A stretch of 49,361 nucleotides of DNA from Mycoemilia scoparia (taxonomy: Eukaryota > Kickxellomycota > Kickxellomycetes > Kickxellales > Kickxellaceae). Both the position numbers and the translations under genes were made by a program. Of the stretch, positions 3,333 through 20,654 are shown in pieces. The notes under the pieces were generated by a model. That model made no database searches. It had not been told where the DNA came from and saw only the letters and a list, made by a program, of their open reading frames with translations. How positions within the stretch are numbered: the first letter of the stretch is position 1; every line of letters begins with the position of its first letter. The stretch spans positions 1 through 49,361 of the forward strand of contig JANBPU010000118.1 of the NCBI GenBank assembly GCA_027575805.1. Direction: 5' to 3'.

Positions 3333-6300
3333 TTAGGCAGCAACAATGGCAATAGCACGCTGGACGCTTTCTTTGTGAGCGTCTGCATGAGTAGCCGAAA
3401 TAGGAACATTAGCAGAGAACAACAGGTTGCATCTATCAGAGTTGAGATAGACTGGAAGCTTAATGCTGACAGAAGCAGTGGAATCATCTCCAGATGAAGC
3501 TGCCTGCTTGGCATAGGTTTTCTTTTCCCAATACAAAGTCGCAACTCCAAGTTTGGTGATTCCACCTTCTTTGGGAGATTCAACTTGTCCGCTGGATGGC
3601 GCAATGAGTGCTCCCTCAAGACGCAAGTCACGAAGACCAAAAGTATTTGGAAGGTCCAGATCAGCTGGCGATTCTTTGGAGTGGCATAGTCGGAGCTTGA
3701 GCTCAAGCTCCTCAAGAGATAAATTCAATACCTTGGCAGCTTCTTGACGAGTAGCAGTGATGAATGCTTCAGGGAAAACAAGACCACCCAACCAGACACC
3801 AGATTTGAGAACATCCTTGGATGACTGGCCACTATTGACCTGTTCAATGACCCTATTGTTTTGAATCAAACGCTCGTTGAAGTCAGCAACCCACTTGGAT
3901 ATGGTAAAGTCGTGGGGTACAGTGTATGTCCCAATCCATGACTTGGGAACAAGTCCAGAATTTAAGTCAGAAAGCAGTGATCTCAAGTGATTGGTTGTCT
4001 TAATTTCGCCCTCACAGACTTTAGATACTTGAGTCAAATCATCGCGAACTGTGCTGAGAAGAGCCTTCATAATTGTGGTCTCACGTTCAAATACTCTTGA
4101 GATTGGGTCGGAAGCTTGTGCAGATGAGTCCCTAGTACCAGCGTTTTCAGCTGAGTTAAGGTCCGGCAGATCAGTGGGAAGAGCACTGAGCCAAGATTTG
4201 CACATCTTTCCTACTTGAATCATGTAAGCAGGGAGCTCAGGCTTGGCCGACAGCTTGGCATCAATAGCAGATGAACCACCTAGTGCATCTCCAGCAGCAT
4301 TGGTGTCAAGTGCAATTTCATCAACATCATCTTCAAATGCCTTGAGTTGAAGTACCTTCTTAACTAGCGCTTCGCTCTTTTGAATGAGCAGGAGGTTTTC
4401 AGCATTGGATGGAAGGCCAAGCCATGTAGGTGGTTGGCGATCAGGCAATTTATGGCACCAGGTCAGGAAGTCCTTGAATGCGGCTCCCTCGGGAATCAAC
4501 AGGCGACCATTGCTAGTCAATCTATCGGATTGTTGATCACCGCCAACATTGTCAACTAGAGCAAAGTCGATGTTGTATGCAGCTGGAGTAAAGATATGGT
4601 CAATAAATGAACCAAGGACATGACGATCAAAGTCATTGTCTATTCTACCACCATAGATGGTTTCTTTCAGCAAAGTCTTGATAGCATCCCATGGAATAGC
4701 CTCTGGGTCAAGATTGGTCTTGCCCTTGGCAGCACCATCGATCCAGCCATCAATTGTAGAAAGTGCACAGGTGAAGTCAGAGTCGTTAAATTCATAAATC
4801 TTGGTCCATCCCAAAGGTGAATAGCGAAGACGCTCAATAATAATAGAGTGCACCCATGAGAGCAAGAAGTATAGGCGTGTTCTTTCGGCTGGCTGTCCGT
4901 GGTTGGCCTTTGATGGTGGGATGGAAGACAAGGACTCAATCAAGTTTGCCTTAATACCTGGTGGTGGTTCAAACATGAGTACTCTGGAATGGCGAAGAAG
5001 GTTGATAGGAACCTTGGGGTTAATTTCCATTGTCAAAAACAGTCTGAACTGCGGATGTGGTGATAGCGTATGGAGACGCTTCTCAAGTTGGCCTAGCCAT
5101 GAAGGCGCAAGGTGGACGTTCTTTAGGAGTACCCATGTACCAGACTTGGCAGCTTGAGCAATGGCTTGATCAGCAAGTTGGTAACCCTCAACAGATCCCA
5201 TGGCAATGGAATTGAGTTTGGCCTTTTGTTCAATAGCCAAGGTATCAACACGGTATGAAGCATCATGACCTGGAACTGAGCACAAAGCAATCGGAGTGCT
5301 GGGCTTGACTTCCGTTTTAACCAAAGTAGGCAAGTTGAGCTCAGAAACCAGTGAGCAGCTCTCAAGGGTTGCAGATGTAGAAGCTGGTGTGCTGAAAACA
5401 GTAGCAACAAGTCGAGTGGTAGCATGCATAACTCTGTCAGGACGGAACAAACGAATTATTATCCATTCGCGAATAATCTGAACAACAGGGGAAAGTTTTT
5501 CGGCAATTCCAGACTCATCCAAGGACGAAATTGCTGAGGATGGAACAGCAAGCTCTGGTTCTGTCGAACGAAGGAACTTGGTCCATTGAGAAATGGTTTC
5601 TTCGCTGCGGCGAACAAGGCCTCTACACCAGTATAATTGCTGCATATGGTATTCAAGCTTAGAACGGCAATTGTCATCAACCAATTGGTCAATTTCGCTG
5701 GGCAGCTGAGATGAGATATCGGTGTGCCCAATTCTAGTAAGTCCAGAAGATGAAGAGTCGTTATTCTGTCCAGAGCCAACAGTATTAAGACCCATGTCGC
5801 TGCTCTGTAGCATAAAGTCAAGATCTGACTCAAAGCCATTGATAGTCTCGGTTGAGCCAGTAACATCATCATCGTTGTTGAGCTTGATGATTACAAGTTG
5901 CATAAGAAGGACAAGGTGGTCGTGGTGCAGTAGAGATACACCAGCACGGCGGAAGCAGAGACGGAATAGATCACGCTTGAGAATGCTTATGCGAGCCCCT
6001 GGGTCAGCTACACCTTTAAGATTTGGATTGGCCTCAACAACTTCATCAAAGATAGTCTTGAAGAAGTCAAGAGAGAACTGATAGAACTGATGAATGGAAG
6101 AAAGGTGCTCCAAAGCAAAATACACTGATGAGCATGTACGAGCAAGTGGAGTATAGGTGACTGTGACATGATCAACTTCGGCCATAATTCCGTCAGTTTC
6201 TTCAACTTTGCGAGCAATCTCTGCTGCTTCGGTCTTGAGAGTTTCAAGAGTTGCAATGACATTGTCATCATCGAGAATATTGCCCTGAGAAGCATTGAGG

Positions 6301-9300
6301 GCATGCAAGAGCTCTTTTTCGAGCGCATGCAAGCGCAGCTGGAATTCTCCTTGGAGCTTGATGAGATCGCGTCTTCTTTCTTCAACATCGGGTCTTTCGT
6401 TTTGCAAGACCTGGTTGAGACACTGTGACTGCAAGGAAGCGCGGGTAACAGTGAAGTTGACAAAGGTGACTCGTGATGAAAGGTCTGGTGGGAAGCTGAC
6501 TGACGGATCTCTGGTAGATAGGAACAGTGTGAAGGCAGGTGAGAAGTCAATGTCCTGATTACCCAGGCGGATAAGGACACGACCACCGGTCTTACACAAT
6601 TCATGGTTGAGGATGGGGTTAAGGATGGGATCAAGATGCTCAACGTCTTGGATAAGAATTGGGTTACCAAAGCGCAGGGCAGATTCGAGATGCTTGAGGA
6701 ATGCATCATCAAGGAATGAAGTAACTGTGAGCTTGCGAGATCCTCCAGACTTGGACTGCAAGTATGTCTTGAGGTACTGAGTGGCCTGTCCAGATGGGTC
6801 AATGATAAGCGGGTAGCGGTTGAACTTGTTGAGCATGACTGCGTTCTCAACAGCCAAATCGTCAGGAGGCAACCCTTGTGATTGCCATTCAAGACGTTGC
6901 TCAGCGGTGGACAAGTATTCGGCAAGGCGTAGATCCTGGTAGAATTCAATTCCAGACTTTTCAAGGTGAGTGGACCAACGGGCAAAGAGCTGCTCACGGT
7001 ACTGTTGGTCAAAGTAACCGCTGTAGGCGAGGAATGCAGCAGACAAAAGCACATCACCAGCGATAGTTCCCATTTGTCCCTTGAATGTAGCACTTCCCTT
7101 CTCCCAACGTTCCTGTTCGCTTGAAAGAGATGTGAGTAATTTGACTGATCTTTCAACCTTGGATTCAACCTTAGTCATTTCAGCCTTTAGCTGCTGAGTC
7201 TCCGAAATTAAAGCAGCATACTCATCTTTGTAGCAGGCAATGCTAGATTCGAGTTCGTCAATCATCTTTTCCATAGTAGATGCCTTGACTCTGGTCTCTT
7301 CGGCATTCTGTTCAAGCTGCTTGACTTCATTACGAAGTGGTCCAACACGCTCCAAGATTTCAGCATAGTTGACTTGAGCAAGAGCCCACTTGACCAATGG
7401 ACCACAAGCTTTGGAAGCACGATTGACAGTCTCAAAGTTGTACTCTGGTCTGCTTAGGTACTCGCGCTTGAGTTTCTCACGAAGTCCCCTTGTCATTTGT
7501 CTATCGGTGTCAAAGTTGACAATCGAGGAAATGAAGTCATCACGGCGGATGATACTCTGGAGTGCTTTCCACTCAGTCTGACGGTGACCAAGCAACACAC
7601 ATACAGACTCCATAGCCATCTTGACAGCAACAGGTGGGTTGGCCATACTACGGACTTCAGTAAGTTGTTGTTTCTTGATATTAGAAACTGAACGCTGAGC
7701 CTCCATGACGGCCGGCTCTGCATTCTCTAGATCGATCATGACAACACGGCGACGCTCTTCAATTTCCTTGTTCTTAACCTCAAGCTCGCCTTGGATCTGA
7801 ATAGAAGCAGCACGCTTTTGCTCAGCTTCTTGCTGATCCTTAACCATCTGCTGCAGCTTTTCATTGGCCTGGGCGGTCTTTGCCTCCAGCTCACTCTTCT
7901 TGGTTGCCAGACTCTCGCGGAGCTCTTTAACTTGGTTAACAGTGGCATAAAGCTTGTCGAGACCAACATTCAAGTGACGCTGCTGCTCTTCGAGTTCTTC
8001 TTGTCTTTCTCTGTACATCTTGACGTAATGCTGGATGAAGTCAAGGTAGTGGCGAGGAGTGACAAAGTTGGTTTTTCCTTGGCGTTGAGCAAGTCGGGCA
8101 TTGACTGATGCAAGGGACTTGTGAACAAACACAAATGCATTGATGATAGCATCACGGTGATCAGGCGGTAGTGCAAGGTCAGAGTAAACCACAGGAAGAG
8201 TATCTGGAGAAACGAAGTCAGACTTATCGAGATCAAGCAATGAGGTGAATTCCCGACCAACTTGGTACAAAGCCTGGTCAGACCAGTCGCCAAACCAATC
8301 AAGTACACAACGATTGAACAGGGCCGGAGATGTGGCAGCACGGGATGCAAGTCCTTCTGATGGCGGATTCATGGTAAACACAACATGGAGGTTGCGAGCA
8401 ACCTGACGAGTGAACCAGTTGTAAAGTTCCTCTTGAGAGTCCATCATCAAACCTTCGCGAGCAGCACCCTCGCGACAAGCTGTGATCAATGTGGCATATT
8501 CATCACCCTCGAATAGACCAGGAACTTCGGCATTGGCAAGAAGTGTGTTCATGCGCTCAAGGAATCCAGAGTCCAAGACATTAGATTCATCCATGACAAA
8601 GCAGATGCGCTCGCCACGGCAACCAGTCCTGCGAAGAACAGTTCTGAGATCCTCGTCAAAATCTGCGGCAGTGTATCTGTTGTGGGCCTTGATCTGGAAC
8701 ACAGTAAGACCATTCATCCAGGCAACAAAGCGAGTAAGCGTAGTCTTTCCAGATCCGCTGACACCGATTAACAAAGCATGGCCCTGGGTCTGACGGAAGA
8801 CACGGTCAATGCGCAAGACATGCTCAAGTACATCGTTGAAAAGAACAAGTGGCACGTCAAGCTCTTCTTCATAGAAGACCTTGAGACGCGCACTGACATA
8901 TTCGCGTAGTTCCTCGCGCTCGACAGACACATAGAATTTGGACAACCAGTTGGAGAACAGGATGGGACGGTTAAGTGACTCTTCGTGATTGATTGTTGGG
9001 AAGTGGAGACGAGCGACCTCATCAATCTTATCATCCGTCCACTTGCGCTCGGCATTGTTAACAAGACGATCCTGGAAGAGCCGCAAAGCCTCATGAGCCC
9101 ATACCCTGACAAGTCCCTCAACAGTGAGTACCTCAAGTGGTGATATAGCTTCATAGATACCACGCATCCAACGAGTGAGTTCACGGGGCGAGTATACATA
9201 ATGAGCCTGCTGATCGGGTGTGAATCTCTGCTGGGAGGCAAGATAAACATCAACCATGGCTGACGTGAGGGGTTCGGCAAACGCACGAAGGTTAGGCTGA

Positions 9301-12300
9301 ACCTTAAGCATGGCACGATTGAATGTACCATAGATCTGGTTAAGCGACATCTCGCCGGGATAGTCAACCATGATCAGAGGAGCATGGCGCAGGAATCTGT
9401 GGGAAAGTGGAACACGGCCAGGATCAGTTGGTGGGTTACAAGCTCCAACAAACTGGACTCTGTCGAGCTGTACCCACTGCTGGTCAGATGCTCTCCAGTA
9501 GCCACCTCTCTCGATAAGCTGGCGCATGAATGAAATGACTCTTTGGGTGCCATACTTGTCAGTAGTGGGCAAGTTGATTTCATCACAGAATATAACAAGC
9601 CATCTTCCAAGCATCATTGGGGACAATGTTACACCATTTGGCGTCTTTCGGTATTCACAATGCTGCTCAAATGTCTTGAGGATAAGCTCAGGAGTTGTGG
9701 CTGATGAGAAATTGAGGCCAATGACTTCGAGGCTGGGCAGCTTACGCAATGCAGAGAAGAGAGTCATTGTTTTACCTGAACCGGGTGGACCGCAGAGCAT
9801 AATGGGCTTGTGCTCAGATAGCCAGGAGTAGAGAACCTCTTCGTGGCGAATAGTGTCGACAGTAGGAATAACGACATCAGAATCAACAACCTTGTGGGTT
9901 TCGATCTCGATGGAAGGAACACGATCGGTCCATGGTGCCCACTCAACATTACCACTGTTGGAGATGGAAACATAATAGTCTATGATAGAAGTAGGCTGAG
10001 TTGAGGACATGCCTGGACCATTGTTGCCGCTGCTACCAAAGTGAGGTAGCTCTATGGTAGTAACACTCTTGACAAAGTCGGACATGGTCGAGCGAACGGT
10101 AAGGGGAGAGTCACCAGTGAAGCACCATATAATGCTGGAAACCAAATGGCGAGAGACATATTGTTCTGTGGCTTCAGGATTCAATGGGAAGTCGGGGTGC
10201 TCGCTGTTGTACTCGAGGATCTGGCGAACAGCTTGGTTTAGCAATGAAAATAATGTGGCCATAGCACGAACCTTTGTGAAGTCCATAATATGGTTGAGCG
10301 AGGCGGCATACTCAAGGCAGCGATCAACCAAACTGTCACGTGCAAAGTGGGGCTCAAGAATGGTGGCAATGTCGCGCTGAATGGCAAGCACAGGGTTACC
10401 ACTTTCATCCTTATCTGCCTCACCAGCTTGGCTGGTGCTCGTCTGGACAACTGGAGCGGCGATGATCTCGTCGTCAGCATCATCCAGTGGCACATTCTTG
10501 AGAGTTGTAAGGTAGTTCTGGCTCATCATAGTGAAGTCGACTACATCATCGCTGAACCATACCATACCACAACGAGACACTGTGGCCAGTGTAGCATAGC
10601 GGAGGGTTTCTACTTCAAACATGATATGAACATTTGGCGGAAGAGCAAGACGTTCGCCATTAGGCAGGGTCAAAAGACGGTTATCGTCAAGAACAGAATT
10701 GAGATTTTCTACCCACTCTGGGTCGACATCGCCGTCAAATATGATCCAGTGCCTCTTTGTGCTTTCACCGCGAATGTTATCAACAATCTTTCTCAAGAGA
10801 TGGGTGAACAAACCATCAGTCCACTCGCGAGTAGTTGGATCAAGAGTACCATAAAGGTCGTCCTTCGAGATGGCCTTGGGATCCAAAACATAGGAAACAC
10901 CTTCAATGCCATCAATCTTTTCCATAGCACTCAAGAGTGTTTGCCAGGCCATAGTTTTACCAGTTCCAGAAGGACCAACCATCATAAGACCATGGTGAAT
11001 ATTTTGGATCTGGTATAGCTGAATGACCTTTCCAAGCCATTTTTCACCTAGAATCAAGTTTCTTTGTTCGCAAACTTCCTTGATAGCTCCGCAGAGCTTT
11101 TCGAGATCAACAGGTTGGTATTCAACGCCAGGGAACACGTCCTTGAGGAGGCTATCGAGCAATGGAATATCAAATCCAACAAGTTTGGGCATCACTGTCT
11201 CACGGATACTCTGGATAAGGAGCTCTTGCTCATTAATGCCGCCTGCGCCACCTTCCTTAACATCAGCTGGTAAATCGCGTTTAAGGTTACCAGCAGAAAC
11301 AAGAACAGACTTGAGTGCACGGAGGCCAAAGTCATAGTGAGGCTGAGGAGAGAGCTGCTCAGAGCACAAATTGAACAATGGTACTACCTTGCTGGCAAGT
11401 AATTCGGCAGTTCTGAATCCTTGAGAGTAAAGCATAACTTGAGCAATGAGCTCACGATCAGGATGTGTCATAGCAATTGATCTGAACAGCTTCTTCAGGT
11501 TATCTGGAAGGTTGGAGCGACCAGCATATCCAGGATTCATAGTGATGAAGATACCAGTGTCATCGCTAAGCTTGACCTTCTTTTCAACCAATTCAATCTC
11601 AGTCGCTGGTGGCTTTCCACTGCCAGTGTGTTTGAGTGATGCTTCCAGTGATTTGCGCAAGCCAAGCTGAATGGTTTGGATTTGCTGAGATACAGCTGAC
11701 AAGATTCTCTCTTCCAAACGATTGAACTCGTCAAAACAGCCCCAGGCGCCGACCTGACACAAACCAACAAAGATACGACCCATGGCCTGGAAGTCAAAGT
11801 TTTCGTCGCAACAGAACACCAGGACAAACTTACCCAACTGAGTACCGAGTGCCTTGACGGATTCGGTGTTGTGGGATACAGTCATGTCGGACAATAACAA
11901 GCGGCGGTTGCCATCAAGAGTGAATCCAAAGTATTCCCCCATACCCAAAGGTTGGATGTTGAAGGTCCATGAGAAGTTGCTGTCAGCTTCAATATCCTTG
12001 ATTTGACCAACATATTCGCCACGACTAGGAAGCTTGCTAATATTTGAACCAGAAATCGAAATTTGGTAAACATCGCCATCAATAGCGGGCACCTTGGCTG
12101 GTGATGTGGATAACAAACCAGATGTCTTGGCAATTCGGCAGACTTTTTCAAGAATATAAGAGTCAAGGCTGGTTATCTGAATGGACTTTCCATCCTTGCT
12201 TACACTACCCTTGGCATCAACAATACCAGCCAAGAAGGGCAAGCGAACCACCTCAAGCTCATCCAAGAGCAATACTTCGATGATGGACTTTCCAAAGTTA

Positions 12301-15300
12301 GCACCCAAAAGGCTTGCTGCTACAGGTGCCAACAAGCTATGAACCTCGGGGGATATTAAGGCAGATATGTCGGAAGTTGAGGTAGCTTTGTGTCCAAGAG
12401 CATATGACAGTTCACTGATCTGCAAATCAGTTGCAGAAGGAATGTGTTGTTTGAGTGCCTTGCGTAGGATGCCTTCACTGGAGTGGCTTTGAATGGCATC
12501 TGGACGGTACATAACGCACTGTTCACGAACCTCCTTTGGTGCATTCATAAATGATGTAAGTGGAATTTCCCAAACAAAGTCTTTGTAGATAGGAGTCTGG
12601 GACTTTTCGGCAACAAAAGCAGAAGCTTCGTCAACATTCTTGAAGACTTTAGTAAGAACTTGTACCATGTTTTCTGCAGAATCATATTCATGCCAGGTTG
12701 CTTTATGCTCATCAGAACTGACAGACTCAGCAATAGGTTGACCTGCCCATTTGAGAACAAGTATATGGGCTCCATTGCATTCGAATGGCAAAATGGTACT
12801 AGAGGAGACATTGGGAGTGACACGGTACATGGGGCCAGAGCCTGCTGTTGTGTTTCCAACCAAACGGGAAGTACCATCATCACCCATTACTTTATCTCCA
12901 GTCTGGATGAGCTCGACCGTCTTCTCAGACCCATCATGCATGATGATCTTGGTTCCCTTAGCCCAGCACTTTCCTGTACCAGCCGGTCCAAATGGAGAAC
13001 CACCGAGTCTTCCATCTAGTGCCTGAGTTAGTGTTAGGTAGCACTTGTCAGTAAGTGGGGTCTGGACAAGGCGGTCAGGAACACCGAGGTATTCATACCC
13101 ATAGAAGAACGAAGCATCAGCCATACGGATGACAAGGCGCTCAGTAGGATTGTCAGTGGGAGCAGACGAGAAGTAGAAACGCATGTGGTAAAGCCACTTG
13201 AAGTCGAGGTTAGATTGAACACCAGATTCAATCAAGGAGCGCAACACATCTCTCTGGTGAACAAGCTCGGTGATAAGGTGCTCGCACTTCTTGCGTGTAA
13301 TTGGAGTAAGCTCGGTTAAAACTGAAGAAGCAAGGATGTCAAGGTCTCTCTCTACTGAGGACAAGACATTACTAACAGCAGCAGTGGAGCCAGATTCACC
13401 AACTTCTATCAAAGCAACTTCAGTGAGTCTAGTCCAGTTGGCTTGGATAGCCAAAACAACTAACTGTGATGGATACTTTTCTATCCATTCTAGGATGCTA
13501 GTGGAATCGACCTTTCCAGAGGAAATCAGTGTCTCGAGGTCTTGAACGGCACTTGCCAACAAATTAGCAAGAGTATATCTCATCTCAGTTTCAAGCATTG
13601 TCAACCACTCGTTAATCTTGGGTGCATTCTTTAGTGAAACTGGTTTAGTAAATTGTACCTTTTCACCCTCCTTCGATGCCATACCACGAATCACAGCCTC
13701 ATCATCGCTGAGGTCAATAAAGGCAATACCAGCAAACATCTTGCGCAAATGTTTTTGGATGCGTGGGACTTCCTTGGCATTGCCAATGATTTCAAGCAGA
13801 TCTTCGTCACCAACAAAGTAAAACCTGGGGAATGAAGACCGCTCACGCTCTAAATATTCACCTAGGGCCTTCTGGATCTTACTAAGCAAGTCTAGCAAGC
13901 GTTCAAGTGATCTCTGAATATTGGGCAGGTTGAGCACATCAAGAACATAGGGGGACTTGTACACACGCTTCATCACAACCAAGAACTCGGTATTAATATT
14001 CTGGAAACGCGAGGACTCGGTTGGAAGCAAGTGCTTTATATCAGCAGAGCCAGTAAATATACCTTCGAGGTAGACCCATTGGCGCTGAACATCAATCCAA
14101 ACATCAAAAAGCACGTGGACACGGTTGAGCTTGTCTTCCCAAGCCGATGCCTCCTCTTCGAATACCTTATAGTAAGGAGAAGCCTTCATGGCTGTGAGGG
14201 CGTTGAGCTGTTCTGAGCACTTGGCAAATAGATCGTCCCAACCCTTGATCAAACGGCACTTGTTTTGGTAAGGCACAAGTTCGAGAATATAATTTGTCCA
14301 TGTGTCCTTAACCTGTTTAAGGAACTCTTCGAGGCCCATTTCACCTTGGGCCATGGTAATAACGTCACGAACAGTCTTTTCATTAGCAATAAGATCAAAG
14401 TCCCAAATGTTACCAAGGGTCAACTCAGACATGGCTAAGTGGCCCTTTACGTTGAGGGCCTTGAAGAGCTGGCGCCAGTGACGGTCACGCAAAGCATCGC
14501 TCTTGAGGTCAACAATTAGAATGTTGGCCTTCAGAAGATTACGAAGCGATTTTTGCATGTACTCGAATGCAGCATACTGACGCATACGGCTAGGCAACTT
14601 CTTGCTATCCATAATGAGTTTATCAAGTTGCTGGCGAACCTTGCGTGGAACAACACTGGTCCATAAGCTCTCACTCAACACATCAACCGATGCCCATATT
14701 CCACCAAGCGAAGCCCATACGCTCTTGAGATCTCCAACCTCTTCGAGGACAGGCTGTAAACGATCATCCTTGGACATTTCAAGATCAAGAGCCTCCTTTG
14801 CACGGCTGATCTGCTCATACTCCTTGATGAGTCTATTGAGCTTCCCTTCATAAACACTGAGCGTATTGGCAGCAACATCAGGCCGAATGCTACCCTGAAC
14901 TGGCTTGTTCTTCTCCCACTCAGCAACTAGGGTCTTGATGCGCTCATCGATAGCCTTATCTTCAGCAACAATCTTTAGCTGCAGCCCAGCGAGCTGCTCT
15001 TGAATAACATTATTCTTGCGATTCAAAATCTCATTGAAGGCACTCCATTCGCCCTCCATCTGATCGGCATGGATCCAGTCAGTGGGAAATTGGTAACGCT
15101 GGCGTTCGAGTACACGCTGACCTCCACGAAAATCTTCCTCAACAGCCTTCTTCCAGATTGGGTGTTTGCGCTTCAGCTCCTGAACAAAAGTGATGAAGAC
15201 AACTGCATCCGAAGTAGCAGCAGTTTCGACAGAGTGCTGCTCCAATTCACGACGGGCTGCAGAGATCTCCTCATAGCGCAAGTGAATAGCATCACTGAGC

Positions 15301-18300
15301 TTATTTCCAAAGCGGTTAAGGATATCACGTTGCCAAGCATCATACTTGGCATTGACCTTGGACTGCACCTGTTCGTAGTCAATAATGCAATGGGCACCAA
15401 TGTGCTTCTCGACTTCAGAGTTGTCAAATGTAGAACGAGACTGCTTAATTTGAAGAAGCATCTCTTGCCAGCGTCTCAAGTCGTCACCAAGGAAGTGCAA
15501 AACCTGATCAACATCAAGATCCCAGAGAGCCTGATACTGCATCCACACTTTGACATAATCAGCTGCCTGCTCGATGCGCTTCTCAATGACAGTATAAGCC
15601 TTGGATAGTGTATCATCATTTATTATCGAATAAATGTTCTTGTAAGTCCTTGGACGAGTGGCTGGTTGCTGGCCATAAGACTTGACAACATCAAATCGTG
15701 CCAAGTATTCGGCTTCGTCATCAGCAGAATCATCATTATCAGCGGTCAATTCATAACGGCTGGCTTGGGGACGGCGTTGGCAACAAACAACGGACATCCA
15801 AGCATGCAGTTGGTTATACCAAGAGGCACGAGCATGCTCGATAGGTGGGTCAAGGTACATTTGTTGGTTACGAATACACAATTGGTGCACAAGTGCCTGA
15901 AACTGGGGCTTGACGACTTCTTGGCTCTCGTCCTTGCCATTCGATTTGTGTGTTGACTGAAGTTGCTTCTTGTTACGACGCTTAGTAGGTGTCTCATCAA
16001 CTCCAAACCCATGCTGGATGTTACGAGAAAGGCGGGTATCAGCATTACCAGGACCAACATCGCCATTATCACCGCTATCTCTCTCATTGGCTTCCTGTGA
16101 AAATTCAGTGATCCACATAGTAATGGCATCCTTTAGTCTTGCCATCAATACCTTTTCGATACGAGAGTCAAGATCTTGGACCCAGCGTTCAAGGTTGGTA
16201 TAGTTTTCCAAGTTCAGCTTGTCAACCAGGGTCTGGATCTGTTCCAGAATTGTCTCAATATCTTTGGCAGCGTAAGGACAGCGGCCAAGCTCGACAACTG
16301 CAGCAGTGATCTTGTTGTTAATTTCAATGATGCTGGTTGTCTTGTCCTGCAATAAGGCAATAGTTGATGAAAACTCGTTGACAAAGTTGATATGGTAGCT
16401 TTCGCTGGATTCGATACCACCAATGGTTTGCTGTAGACCAGCAGTGCTTCCAGAAATTCCATAATCAAATGCATTGACAAAATGGTCCCACTTTAGATGG
16501 AATCCTTTTTGAATGAGCGTTTGTGCATCTTTTAGGCAGCCTGCAACAAGAGTTGCGATGGATGGATTTTCGGCAATCTGGTACAAAACATTGCGGTATG
16601 TTCTGACAGTCTCAATGAGACTGACTGCAAAGGGATAGATCCTCTTACCATCACGAGCAACATTGACCAATGTATGAGGAACCTGAAATCCTAACCACAA
16701 AAGCTGACGCACTTCCTTGAACAAGGTAATGAGCTGAGCATCAAAGTTGACATTAAGCTGGAATGGCTGGTCAGAAGCGCGGTGACGAGTAATAAGGAAC
16801 ACTCTGCCACTGACTGACAAATCTCGGCGGCTGATTTCAGTATACCAGGCATCATACAGCAAACGGCTGTCCAACTTGCGACGGAAACTAGTCGAATCAG
16901 AGTGAAGACGCTGTCCTTCAGCATACATTTCCCAGCCTTTACCCAAGACATCCTCAATTCTTTGCATATACAAATCGAGCTGACGTTCAATCTGGCGGGT
17001 CCAAATGATTCCACCAGAAACTGGAGGAACATCACGCAGCTGGGACATCACATAGGCTTCAGACTGGCGGTAATGCATCTTGAACTTATCATGAAGCTTG
17101 CGAATATCCTCCTTGACCGAGTCAATGAGCTGATTTTGGTATTCCTTGATAGCACCTCTGATCTTGGGACGAATGAACAGAGCATTGAATTTAGAGAACA
17201 CTCTAAACATTTCGGATGCATTTTTGGCCATTGCCAAATGGTCACGCAACTGAGAGATAATCTGGTTCTCAACCCTCGAGACACGCTCGTTGTACACGGT
17301 CTCGGCATGCTCCCAGGCTTCTGTACCATCAGGAGTTATATCCAATACATCAACTCCCTTGACAGAATCGTATGCCAAATGGATTTCTTCAACAGCATCT
17401 ACAGTATCACGAATGCCGACTTCCTTCTCATTAGTATCATCAACTTCGCGGATATGACTACCACTGGTAAAGCCCAAATTTCCAGATGACGAAGACATGA
17501 CTCTAGTAATAGTTTGCTGTAACTGTTCATGCTGGCTACGGAACTGGCTAACAAAGTACAGACGTTCCTGTAAAGGTGCATGATAAAAGTGAACCTTGAT
17601 AGGAATAAACTTTTCCATACGCTTTCTGGTCACTTCACGAGCAACATTGGTAAAGTCCTTGACATGATCATCCCATGCCTGGAACATCTCTGCACAATCC
17701 GATGTCAGACGTTCAAAGCTATCATAAGGCATATACATGAGGCGACGTTGACCAAGGATACGAGAAACCTGGTCCTGGAGGTCACGAGAAATAGCCTCAA
17801 CAAGTGGCAATACACGACGAACAGGATAAGGGCTGATCTTGAGTTTCTTGTTCAAGTGTCCAAATATTAGATCCAAAGCTTCTTTGATCTTTCCGATGTC
17901 GGTTGCTGAAAGCAACTCGTTAAGTGGGAAATCCTTCATCAAGATGTTATATTTGGTAACACGCTCAGTGGATTCCTTGAGACCAGTATCGGTACGGAAC
18001 GATACAGTAGCATGGAAACGCTTAGCAGCCTTGAGAATATCCATAGTAAGGACAACTTCGTCGCCAGCCAGCTGATCTTCAATGTGGTTAAGGGCACGTT
18101 CCATACTCTGCCAGAAATTGATTTCCTGGGATGCGGTTCCCGATGCAGGGTCACGATCAAGCTTTGTGACCTTTTGGATTTCCTTGATCCATCCATTAAC
18201 ATCAGACTGCAGGTGGTTAAGGAATGTCGAATCGCTCAACTGGCTAGCTGGGATAGCATCAACGGTAATACGAACTCCATTTCTTCGACACTCATTAACA

Positions 18301-19297
18301 GCATTGACAACAACGGGGTGGATGTTAAGATGAATATCGGGAATGTCCATATTTTGCTGTAAGTGCAAAAGCGACAATTCCAGCTCAGCAATCTTCTTTT
18401 TTGCCAATGGAACTCCAGATTGAGCATCCTTGTCGTCACGTCTACCACCACTCAAATCTCCAGATCCAGTACCTCCAGATGATTCTGCGGCAGCGGCAGC
18501 GGCGGCGGCAGAGTCCGACTTTTCTTTTGCATTAATGAATGCGTTGAAGTAAGGCGAAACAGCATAGTGGATGTAAGCATGCAATGTCTCATAGGGATTA
18601 TTGCTAGCCAAAGCAACAGCGGCCTCGACAGAAGATCCAGAGGCCTTTCCTTCAGCATCCTTCTCAGCGGCGGTAGTGCTGCTTCTTCCTGTACCCATTG
18701 CAGCGGGGCCGGGCAAATTGGTGATCTGGATCTGCGATGAAAGAGGAAGACTGGGATCCAATGTACCAGCTCTCTTGATCAAAGCAATGGAACCGACATG
18801 AGTAGGACTCCATACCAATTCAAACGAAAGCGAATAGGTGACAGTCGAGAACGAAAATGCCATGGCCTCCTCTTCTTCGCCATCTTCGCCTATAAATTAC
18901 AATCACATAAACCAGCATATGTTAGGGATACAAGTTTAGAGTGTTTTTGAACCAATTCTGCTATGCCGCTAGCATGTATCCATAATAAGTGCATATACAT
19001 ACCCTTTTCGGGCGTCTCGTTTTCCTTATTAACATAAAGAACAGGAACTTGGGGATCGTTAGCGAATTGCTTGCACTTGCTACTAGCTTCAGGGAATGCG
19101 AACAAGGCCGTGATAGCATCTTCTTCATCCTCTCTACCCAGAAGAATAGGAATGAGGTTCAAGATGTACTGTTTGACCAGATTGGCATCACAAATTACTG
19201 GAGCAGTGGCGGACTCTTCCATCATTAGTCCTGGCCCACCGGCAGTAATTGTTTGGTCGTTCGATATCATACTCGCTGAGCCAGATTCTATTACCAT
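3333..19297 (-). CDS. DYN1: cytoplasmic dynein heavy chain, intein-containing precursor
   Basis: This is the motor subunit of cytoplasmic dynein, which carries nuclei, endosomes and spindle components toward microtubule minus ends. Exon 1 (19003-19297, 98 codons plus one base) joins exon 2 (3333-18889) to give a 5283-residue precursor, 4916 after removal of the intein. Seen in order: the N-terminal tail, the linker, then six AAA modules. Walker A loops are GPAGTGK/T in AAA1 (residues 2066-2072 plus 2440, split by the intein), GPSGTGKT in AAA2 (~2737), GPPGSGKT in AAA3 (~3132) and GVSGSGKT in AAA4 (~3474). These are followed by the coiled-coil stalk with the microtubule-binding tip, AAA5-6 and a conserved C-terminus. 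The start is chosen because exon 1 reads into a typical dynein N-terminus and joins at EK/GEDGEE. The tail has a charged low-complexity insert around residues 1030-1085. Exon 2 is a single 15.6-kb open exon, unlike the intron-rich neighbours. The intein is annotated separately. Confidence 0.97.
11868..12968 (-). mobile_element. intein in the AAA1 P-loop of dynein heavy chain, decayed LAGLIDADG endonuclease
   Basis: This in-frame insert of 1101 bases (367 residues, precursor 2073-2439) interrupts the AAA1 Walker A loop: the N-extein ends ...GPAGTGK and the C-extein begins TESVKALG. Block A starts CWAKGTKIIMHDGSEKTVEL with Cys1 as nucleophile. Block B contains ECNGAHILVL with His68. Blocks F and G read GEYFGFTLDGNRRLLLSD and TVSHN, giving the penultimate His and terminal Asn367, and Thr is the +1 residue. 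Between them (~165-320) lies a DOD-type homing endonuclease domain. Motif 2 reads LAGIVDAKG (246-254), where the catalytic Asp is Lys253. Motif 1 reads LSYALGHKA (187-195), where the acid position is His193. The insert has no stop codon and lacks GT-AG ends, so it is not an intron. Splicing should restore GPAGTGKT. The splicing activity is inferred from motifs, not demonstrated. Confidence 0.96.
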
Positions 19298-20654
19298 ACT
19301 ATACTAGTACCAGTATTCTAATACCGACTCAACAACGTCGACAATGATATCAAAAACAAGTTCTTGGGTTTTGTGGACTTTTAAGGGTTTTAAGTGAAAA
19401 CGGTGAAATACGTAAATGTAGGGAGTGTTTTAATATTAGTCGGAGCACGCTTTTGCTTTGAACTACTATAGATTTAGATAGTTTGTAGGCTATGCGAGCA
19501 GTATAAATGATATTTATATTATTAAAAGTGATGTAACTAGAAATAAGAAATACTTGGTGTTGAAAACAGGTCATGAATTTGTTCACCGATTGCTTTCAAG
19601 TTTGTTATTGTGTGGAGGCTCCAACTTAGCTACATGAGAATATTAAGTGCTTGTTGGTGCTGTTGTCTTCATAAAACCAAAAAACGCTGTGAGAAGACAT
19701 AGATTTAATTGTGGCCAATTAAAATAAGCTCCTACTCTCTTAACTCGGCTTAAAAACTGCAAAACTGAAGCCCATACCCTGATTGCAATGTTTTGTTGTT
19801 GTTTTTAACTAGCTTGACAACATTTAATAGGCTTCAGTCACTAATGGGCATGATTGCTCTGCTCTTTATGAACCGAACTGACTTTAAATACCATAGCTGA
19901 GTATCGAAGCTATTATTGACAAAGACTGATTGGTTGGCTGATTCTAACAAAACAAAAGCATTATGGATCTGATCAAGCCAATTTTCTCATAAAGAATGGA
20001 ATAAGTCATTTATTTAACCAGCTTAGTACCACCAGAAATATTTAGCATGTAAATAGACATCCTATAAGCCTGACAGGTGAAGCATTTTTTAGAGCTAAAC
20101 AAACACAACCTCAATGAGGCAAAAAACAAGAGTGATGTTGAAAAAAATGATAGATGAGATAAGTGGAGGAGAATGAACTGTGTCTCTTTTGGCAAAAAAG
20201 AACCAGCTGTCCACTCATACAATAATAATAATTCGAGACTGGTAATACTTTATCCATTAGGGGCAATGATTGCCTAGCCGTGTTCTGTTTTAGAAAAAAA
20301 ATTCATTAATTTCCCTGAAGAGCTTTTTGTAAGTAACCAAGTTCTACATCCAATGATCTGGTTTTTTATAAGAATATCGGTTAGCAAAGAGTCGGATTAT
20401 TCAGGCTTATAGATGTTTCTATACTTCCTTTTGTATTCTTTAGATAAACTACACTATTGTAGCTGGTGTTTTTAGTGTATATATATAAACACATGAAAAT
20501 TTAAAGCCATAAATATTCTTTAATACATCATTTATATTGAACTGCTAACTATATAGAAACAAAAAAAATCATGAAAACATAAAGAACCAAAACAAACAAA
20601 AAATATGGGGATAAAATATCAACATCCAAAATGTCAAGGCACTCAACCCATCGT
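19298..20654. other. intergenic: dynein promoter side and 3' flank of the 665-aa gene
   Basis: This is 1357 bases of AT-rich DNA with short chance ORFs only. No tRNA-like B-box, conserved protein fragment or clear repeat is visible. It lies upstream of dynein and downstream of the hypothetical gene, so it probably contains the dynein promoter. Confidence 0.5.

Follow-up and report, generated by a model that had tools for sequence, protein, structure and literature searches.

A putative intein splitting the AAA1 Walker A motif of a fungal cytoplasmic dynein heavy chain

We describe here a 49,361-nt stretch of the genome of the fungus Mycoemilia scoparia (contig JANBPU010000118.1 of assembly GCA_027575805.1, positions 1 to 49,361, in the following called the window). 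It contains the gene of a dynein heavy chain that is interrupted, within the main ATPase loop, by an in-frame insert with the characteristics of an intein. In the following, the two host parts flanking the insert are referred to as N-extein and C-extein.

The interrupted dynein gene

The dynein frame, a single very long one on the minus strand, encodes 5176 aa including the insert and is made up as follows:

3333..18863, minus strand: main open frame of the dynein heavy chain (open frame, Pfam and Protein Data Bank matches)
12969..18863, minus strand: N-extein with DHC_N1, DHC_N2 and the start of AAA_6, ending in ...GPAGTGK, the Lys codon being 12969-12971
11868..12968, minus strand: putative intein of 367 aa, with a VMA1/Prp8-type Hint domain and a degenerate LAGLIDADG region (profile, structure and model)
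3333..11867, minus strand: C-extein, from the remainder of AAA1 through the C-terminal domain (open frame, Pfam)

A Pfam scan of this frame detected DHC_N1, DHC_N2, AAA modules, the microtubule (MT) stalk and the C-terminal domain. In the case of the N-extein, the best solved-structure matches in the Protein Data Bank were 4646-aa chains named ‘Cytoplasmic dynein 1 heavy chain 1’, which we take to be human, with an alignment ending at residue 1912. By these matches, the host is a cytoplasmic dynein 1 heavy chain. Close to the 5' end the gene is probably split by an intron, with a short extra exon upstream, at about 18890-19303 on the minus strand. The first-pass annotation of this DNA had given the insert as residues 2073-2439; the insert itself stands, but in the single open frame its residues are 1966-2332, a shift of 107 that the short upstream exon fits.

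The insert comprises 1101 bases, i.e. 367 codons, in frame and with zero stops. It splits the GPAGTGKT of the AAA1 Walker A motif between K and T and leaves the conserved flanks intact, so that the junctions (marked by a slash) read ...FGPAGTGK/CWAKGTK...TVSHN/TESVKALG. The coordinates, frame and length proposed at first pass for an insert of 367 residues at Lys/Thr are exact. A search of 5.8 billion proteins was carried out with the last 273 intein residues plus 118 C-extein residues as query, and 120 of the 1348 matches were viewed; among these dyneins the K-T junction was uninterrupted in 117 and interrupted in 3. When a second dynein AAA1 was sought in the 21.16-Mb assembly, just both halves of the interrupted one were found. 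Thus, no uninterrupted copy is apparent, with the reservation that the assembly may be incomplete.

Could the insert be a spliceosomal intron that is open by chance? In-frame fungal introns do occur, and the probable intron near the 5' end lies in this very gene. However, exact removal would require TG...AC ends, which cannot slide by even one base, and the insert therefore fits no common intron class. At the given base composition, the chance of 1101 stop-free bases is about 2e-9; moreover, the codon usage is near that of the host, the homology to inteins is strong, and gene models of related dyneins in Entrophospora (see below) likewise translate a related insert. The intron was consequently rejected on account of its ends (neither GT-AG, GC-AG nor AT-AC), its openness and its homology, and we consider it extremely improbable.

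Evidence for an intein

The following elements could be assigned within and next to the insert:

12966..12968, minus strand: Cys1 codon, predicted first splicing nucleophile (sequence)
12765..12776, minus strand: block B, N65-G66-A67-H68 (alignment; N65 and H68 do not vary among the five sequences aligned)
11868..11972, minus strand: C-terminal part of the Hint domain with blocks F and G, ...YFGFTLDGNRRLLLSDMTVSHN (alignment, model)
11865..11867, minus strand: Thr+1 codon, predicted second splicing nucleophile and Walker A Thr of the mature dynein (sequence)

The insert thus begins with Cys, contains a block B His, ends in His366-Asn367 and is followed by Thr+1, which together with a predicted Hint fold are the characteristics of class 1 inteins. 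The VMA1/Prp8-type Hint model and LAGLIDADG_3 both match the insert. In the predicted structure, the Hint fold superposes on those of Cryptococcus Prp8 inteins at 1.5-1.7 Å over 137-140 residues. Codon usage, expressed as the mean log relative synonymous codon usage, was 0.101 in frame and -0.158 and -0.108 in the other two frames, in keeping with a translated sequence whose adaptation falls slightly short of that of dynein. Altogether, profile, solved structures, fold and relatives back what the first-pass annotation had read from the letters, namely an intein (Cys1, a block-B Asn-Gly-Ala-His, the terminal His-Asn and Thr+1), its site and the logic of a P-loop as insertion site. Our preferred reading is an intein of class 1 (Cys1) with a Hint domain of VMA1/Prp8 type, located at the ‘classic’ Lys/Thr P-loop site; we give a probability of about 0.92 that it is an intein which splices.

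Several observations weigh against this assignment. The general models PF14890, TIGR01445 and TIGR01443 gave no match to the dynein intein in genome-wide searches, in which general intein models did match other inteins of the genome; with E <= 1 as limit, the Pfam scan gave no PF14890 match either, and the only NCBIfam match stood at 0.038. Support comes from the VMA1/Prp8-type model and from structures. The predicted model is moderate (mean predicted local distance difference test, pLDDT, 66.8; predicted template modelling score, pTM, 0.50), with residues 306-331 below 50, and whole-chain matches to PI-SceI, the VMA1 intein of Saccharomyces, have a root-mean-square deviation of 9-14 Å. Block F has an Arg (NRRLLL) where the VMA1 intein of the same genome has His (DHQFLL); read by eye, this Arg is common to PRP8-8, a Prp8 intein of this genome, and to those Entrophospora inteins that keep this part. 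Finally, the 0.101 for codon usage is slightly less than the lowest of the values from 89 windows of the exteins (range 0.103-0.187).

The chemistry of class 1 inteins and the roles of Thr in P-loops are established. According to this scheme, the precursor dynein would be translated with the insert, after which the Hint domain would fold. Cys1 would undergo the N-terminal acyl shift, Thr+1 would attack, and Asn367, aided by His366, would cyclise, so that the 367-residue intein would be freed and GPAGTGK ligated to TESVK. The Thr would thus serve in two successive roles, at first as splicing nucleophile and afterwards as a residue of the nucleotide site. Before excision, AAA1 would presumably be unable to bind or hydrolyse ATP properly. 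Both splicing and the inactivity of the precursor are inferred, as is the loss of DNA cleavage described below. Because the case for splicing is indirect and fungal dynein is not always essential, an intein that no longer splices efficiently, in a dynein gene that is non-functional or only partly functional, was also considered. All terminal splicing residues are intact, however, the gene is otherwise open over its full length with all motor domains, and the assembly yielded no second dynein AAA1, which makes this very unlikely.

State of the endonuclease region

Between the Hint parts, remnants of a LAGLIDADG homing endonuclease were located:

12372..12398, minus strand: remnant of LAGLIDADG motif 1, LGHKATSTS, residues 191-199, with Ser197 (12378-12380) at the aligned catalytic position
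12207-12236, minus strand: motif 2, FLAGIVDAKG, with Lys253 (12210-12212) at the aligned catalytic position
12045..12260, minus strand: homing-endonuclease domain match (Pfam)

As reference we used the intein of a 5782-aa protein (P0123), which has Asp at both catalytic positions. In the dynein intein the catalytic Asp is absent from both motifs, being replaced by Ser197 in motif 1, which is badly eroded, and by Lys253 in motif 2. The alignment to PI-SceI agrees, as the Lys stands opposite the PI-SceI Asp in motif 2. Because these catalytic positions are changed, the endonuclease is probably dead, and the dynein intein would therefore no longer home. Genome-wide, LAGLIDADG_3 matched at the dynein intein alone, although remnants can be recognised in other inteins too.

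Related inteins in Entrophospora dyneins

Among the 120 matches viewed, the three carrying PF05203 were all dyneins of Entrophospora, arbuscular mycorrhizal fungi of the Glomeromycota (P0003, P0004 and P0005). The intein of P0003 is 439 aa long and reads TGK/CWGK...VTHN/TESVK, a junction identical to that in the window; those of P0004 and P0005 begin at the same place, while their C-terminal ends were removed by the gene models. Insertion site and intein homology are hence common to both groups of fungi, with both ends seen in P0003 alone and the N-terminal end in all three. Identity to the intein of the window is 30-34%, and in all three the catalytic Asp is missing at both aligned positions. 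As far as the sequences tell, the dynein insertion is not confined to M. scoparia, and database entries of Entrophospora carry a related intein, unlabelled.

A query with the P0003 intein (2011 candidates) matched only the three Entrophospora dyneins and P0123. A query with the 367-aa intein by itself gave 3824 candidates, none at E <= 0.001, the candidates being restricted to 0.55-1.75 times 367 aa, so that full-length hosts were excluded. Dynein inteins in proteins outside the length limits of the searches, or with few shared words, were possibly missed.

As a separate observation, public Entrophospora dynein models apparently mishandle the intein, perhaps as false introns, since P-loop residues are missing in all three; P0004 and P0005 also lack the C-terminal end of the intein, perhaps through a false-intron cut.

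P0003 and P0004 both come from Entrophospora sp. SA101. Their exteins are 83% identical and their inteins 63%, which divides into 89% for the N-terminal Hint part, 60% for the middle and 72% for the C-terminal part. Both have Gly at the catalytic position of motif 1, and the position in motif 2 differs; the loss in motif 1 is thus probably older than the split of the two copies, and the intein may have been carried since then without homing. An immobile intein would persist at such a site because exact deletion alone restores the invariant loop and inexact loss destroys it.

The persistence of a probably immobile element at one site in two fungal lineages, and in both SA101 copies, could alternatively mean that the intein still splices and has been kept as a regulator, conditional splicing (redox, metal or temperature) gating dynein activation. 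The better conservation of the Hint parts would agree with this, and PMC6805012 describes a P-loop intein of mycobacterial DnaB as sensitive to reactive oxygen. On the other hand, Hint conservation is equally explained by the need for splicing to give a working host protein. Such regulation of dynein is possible, persistence of the intein being its sole support, but we deem it decidedly doubtful.

Relation to the eIF5B intein

Within this genome, the closest intein found to that of dynein lies in the gene of eIF5B (G000:C212:17045-18280, minus strand; L029). Its site, GHVDTGK/T, is the equivalent Walker A position, and the two inteins are 38% identical over residues 1-196. A tree built from 15 VMA-type inteins brought together the dynein, eIF5B and three Entrophospora inteins (93/89), and, as read from the alignment, these have in common a one-residue insertion directly before VRLP. 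The DNA at the junctions is also alike (eIF5B, GATACTGGAAAG/ACCAAA; dynein, GGTACAGGAAAG/ACCGAA): over 20 bp this is the most similar of 190 pairs, with 14/20 against a mean of 5.9 (standard deviation 2.3), and over 24 bp it ties with the pair of FtsH-type proteases read as m-AAA and i-AAA (16).

Some results count against such a kinship. The support of 93/89 is not starred, and over longer stretches the dynein/eIF5B pair is second to m-AAA/i-AAA, with 18 vs 19 at 30 bp and 21 vs 28 at 40 bp. Besides, the likeness of the target sites is partly expected, because both are P-loops. Common ancestry of the dynein and eIF5B inteins is therefore supported, not proven. An endonuclease recognising the P-loop of eIF5B could plausibly have cut dynein as well. 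Whether the ancestral intein, at a time when it still had a working endonuclease, did jump between these similar Walker A coding sequences we hold to be evenly balanced; direction and mechanism of such a move are conjectural.

Compatible with this, the dynein inteins of the window and of Entrophospora could stem from separate jumps of an eIF5B-type P-loop intein. The tree leaves the pairing of dynein with eIF5B or with Entrophospora unseparated (approximately unbiased, AU, test, p = 0.42 for the alternative), the dynein site resembles the eIF5B site in DNA, and Table 1 of PMC5784728 lists IF2/eIF5B inteins from Chytridiomycota and Glomeromycota. The best tree, by contrast, weakly unites the four dynein inteins as closest to each other (68/25). 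We rate separate jumps as a real contender that falls somewhat short of even odds.

Inteins elsewhere in the genome

At least 20 inteins in 9 genes were found in the 21.16-Mb assembly: ten in Prp8, three in the second-largest subunit of RNA polymerase and one each in dynein, eIF5B, VMA1, two FtsH-type proteases, protein kinase C and a class I tRNA synthetase. The assignment of these host genes is backed by domain scans; the more specific labels m-AAA, i-AAA, IleRS and RPB2 (as opposed to another polymerase) are our own reading. The number is a lower bound because family searches missed PRP8-3, PRP8-9 and RPB2-2, which were seen by means of reading frames; using the eIF5B, IleRS, RPB2-2 and m-AAA inteins as protein queries did not raise the number. 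The first residue is Cys in 18 and Ser in 2 of them, and all end in Asn (preceded by His in 16), followed by Cys, Ser or Thr.

The ten Prp8 inteins lie in one open frame (G000:C412:175235-192808, minus strand; L026, L027). This is remarkable because only 7 Prp8 sites were known over all eukaryotes as of 2019, according to PMC6805012. The activation loop of protein kinase C holds a 524-aa intein (G000:C212:88674-90245, plus strand; L025) with the junctions TNTF/C...HN/CGTPEF, and the open-access literature searched gave no report of a protein kinase C intein. In the case of the class I tRNA synthetase (G000:C23:12165-13382, plus strand; L038), the intein FGWD/C...HN/CHGLP sits in what we take to be the HIGH-type active-site motif of IleRS. 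The FtsH-type proteases carry Ser1 inteins at one site, GVGA/S...HN/SR, which are 48% identical (G000:C90:134108-135169, plus strand, L022; G000:C378:9936-11033, minus strand, L023) and reflect either spread from paralogue to paralogue or descent predating the duplication. The RNA polymerase inteins and the VMA1 intein are at G000:C1:572794-578247 (minus strand; L024) and G000:C90:24799-26028 (minus strand; L030), respectively. Spiromyces aspiralis is a member of the Kickxellomycotina. An RPB2 intein has been reported from that species in PMC1635734.

Ten VMA-type inteins have an endonuclease region. None of them has the catalytic Asp in either motif (0/10 for each, one case in motif 1 being a gap). 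The Gly of the motifs, by contrast, is present in 10/10 and 9/10, and 7/10 retain the first of the Asp residues in motif 2. PRP8-8, the eleventh VMA-type intein, is without the region. In the nine RPB2-type inteins, compared by eye without an intact reference, RPB2-1 has an Asp in motif 2 (FGGDG) and IleRS maybe one in motif 1 (MHTDK). None of the 20 was seen to keep both catalytic Asp, as assessed by alignment in 10 and by eye in 9, with 1 lacking the region. It seems that the ten VMA-type inteins lost catalysis but largely retained the LAGLIDADG helices, motif 1 of the dynein intein being more eroded. It could be imagined that the inteins of this genome, at least 20 in number, form a disarmed set that is kept and used by the host, splicing serving as a post-translational activation gate for core machinery including dynein; this would cover P-loops, the tRNA-synthetase active-site motif, the kinase activation loop and Prp8. 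We consider it unlikely.

Regarding the host lineage, a FastTree tree of 36 dynein exteins placed the fungus of the window with Coemansia, Martensiomyces and Smittium of the Kickxellomycotina (local support 100). The neighbours of the dynein gene at 23948-46844 are ordinary fungal genes: an OPT transporter, a fungal kinase, a chitin synthase with a myosin head, PIG-N and a Sec1-family protein.

Comparison with known inteins and implications

PI-SceI is an active endonuclease; it resides in another host protein and at another site, and its motif 2 carries Asp at the position of the Lys in the dynein intein. Cryptococcus Prp8 inteins are likewise fungal and nuclear and have a Hint fold like the predicted one, yet they are short (chains of 176-214 aa) and their sequence similarity to the dynein intein is weaker (9.3e-7). 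The eIF5B intein shares the TGK/T site, the His-Asn-Thr end and the changed catalytic Asp positions, but lies in the P-loop of a translation-factor GTPase and is longer (412 aa). The Entrophospora inteins share AAA1, the start after TGK and the changed Asp positions; they differ in the greater length of the P0003 intein and in sequence, being 30-34% identical to the intein of the window. TerL1-a and similar P-loop inteins of phages, bacteria and archaea have phage terminase or prokaryotic hosts and no eukaryotic motor.

The commonest nuclear intein hosts in a 2018 survey of eukaryotes were Prp8, VMA1, RNA polymerases, ThrRS, GLT, CHS and IF2/eIF5B (Table 1, PMC5784728), and the word ‘dynein’ is absent from the main text of that survey. 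No dynein intein appeared in the portion consulted of PMC8778642, nor in the open-access literature searched, a scope outside of which lie most subscription papers and the intein registries. On this basis we class the dynein intein as a known kind of element whose allele and host protein are both new.

Nuclear inteins are scarce, and a cytoskeletal motor interrupted inside its main ATPase loop represents a new class of host. That a second fungal phylum has a related intein at this very site points to an evolving lineage rather than an oddity. The dynein/eIF5B pair offers a concrete test of gene-to-gene intein jumps by way of look-alike P-loop DNA, and with its 20 or more inteins in 9 genes this genome lends itself to testing whether inteins survive the loss of mobility. 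Should the motor be inactive until splicing has taken place, dynein function would become an in vivo assay for protein splicing.

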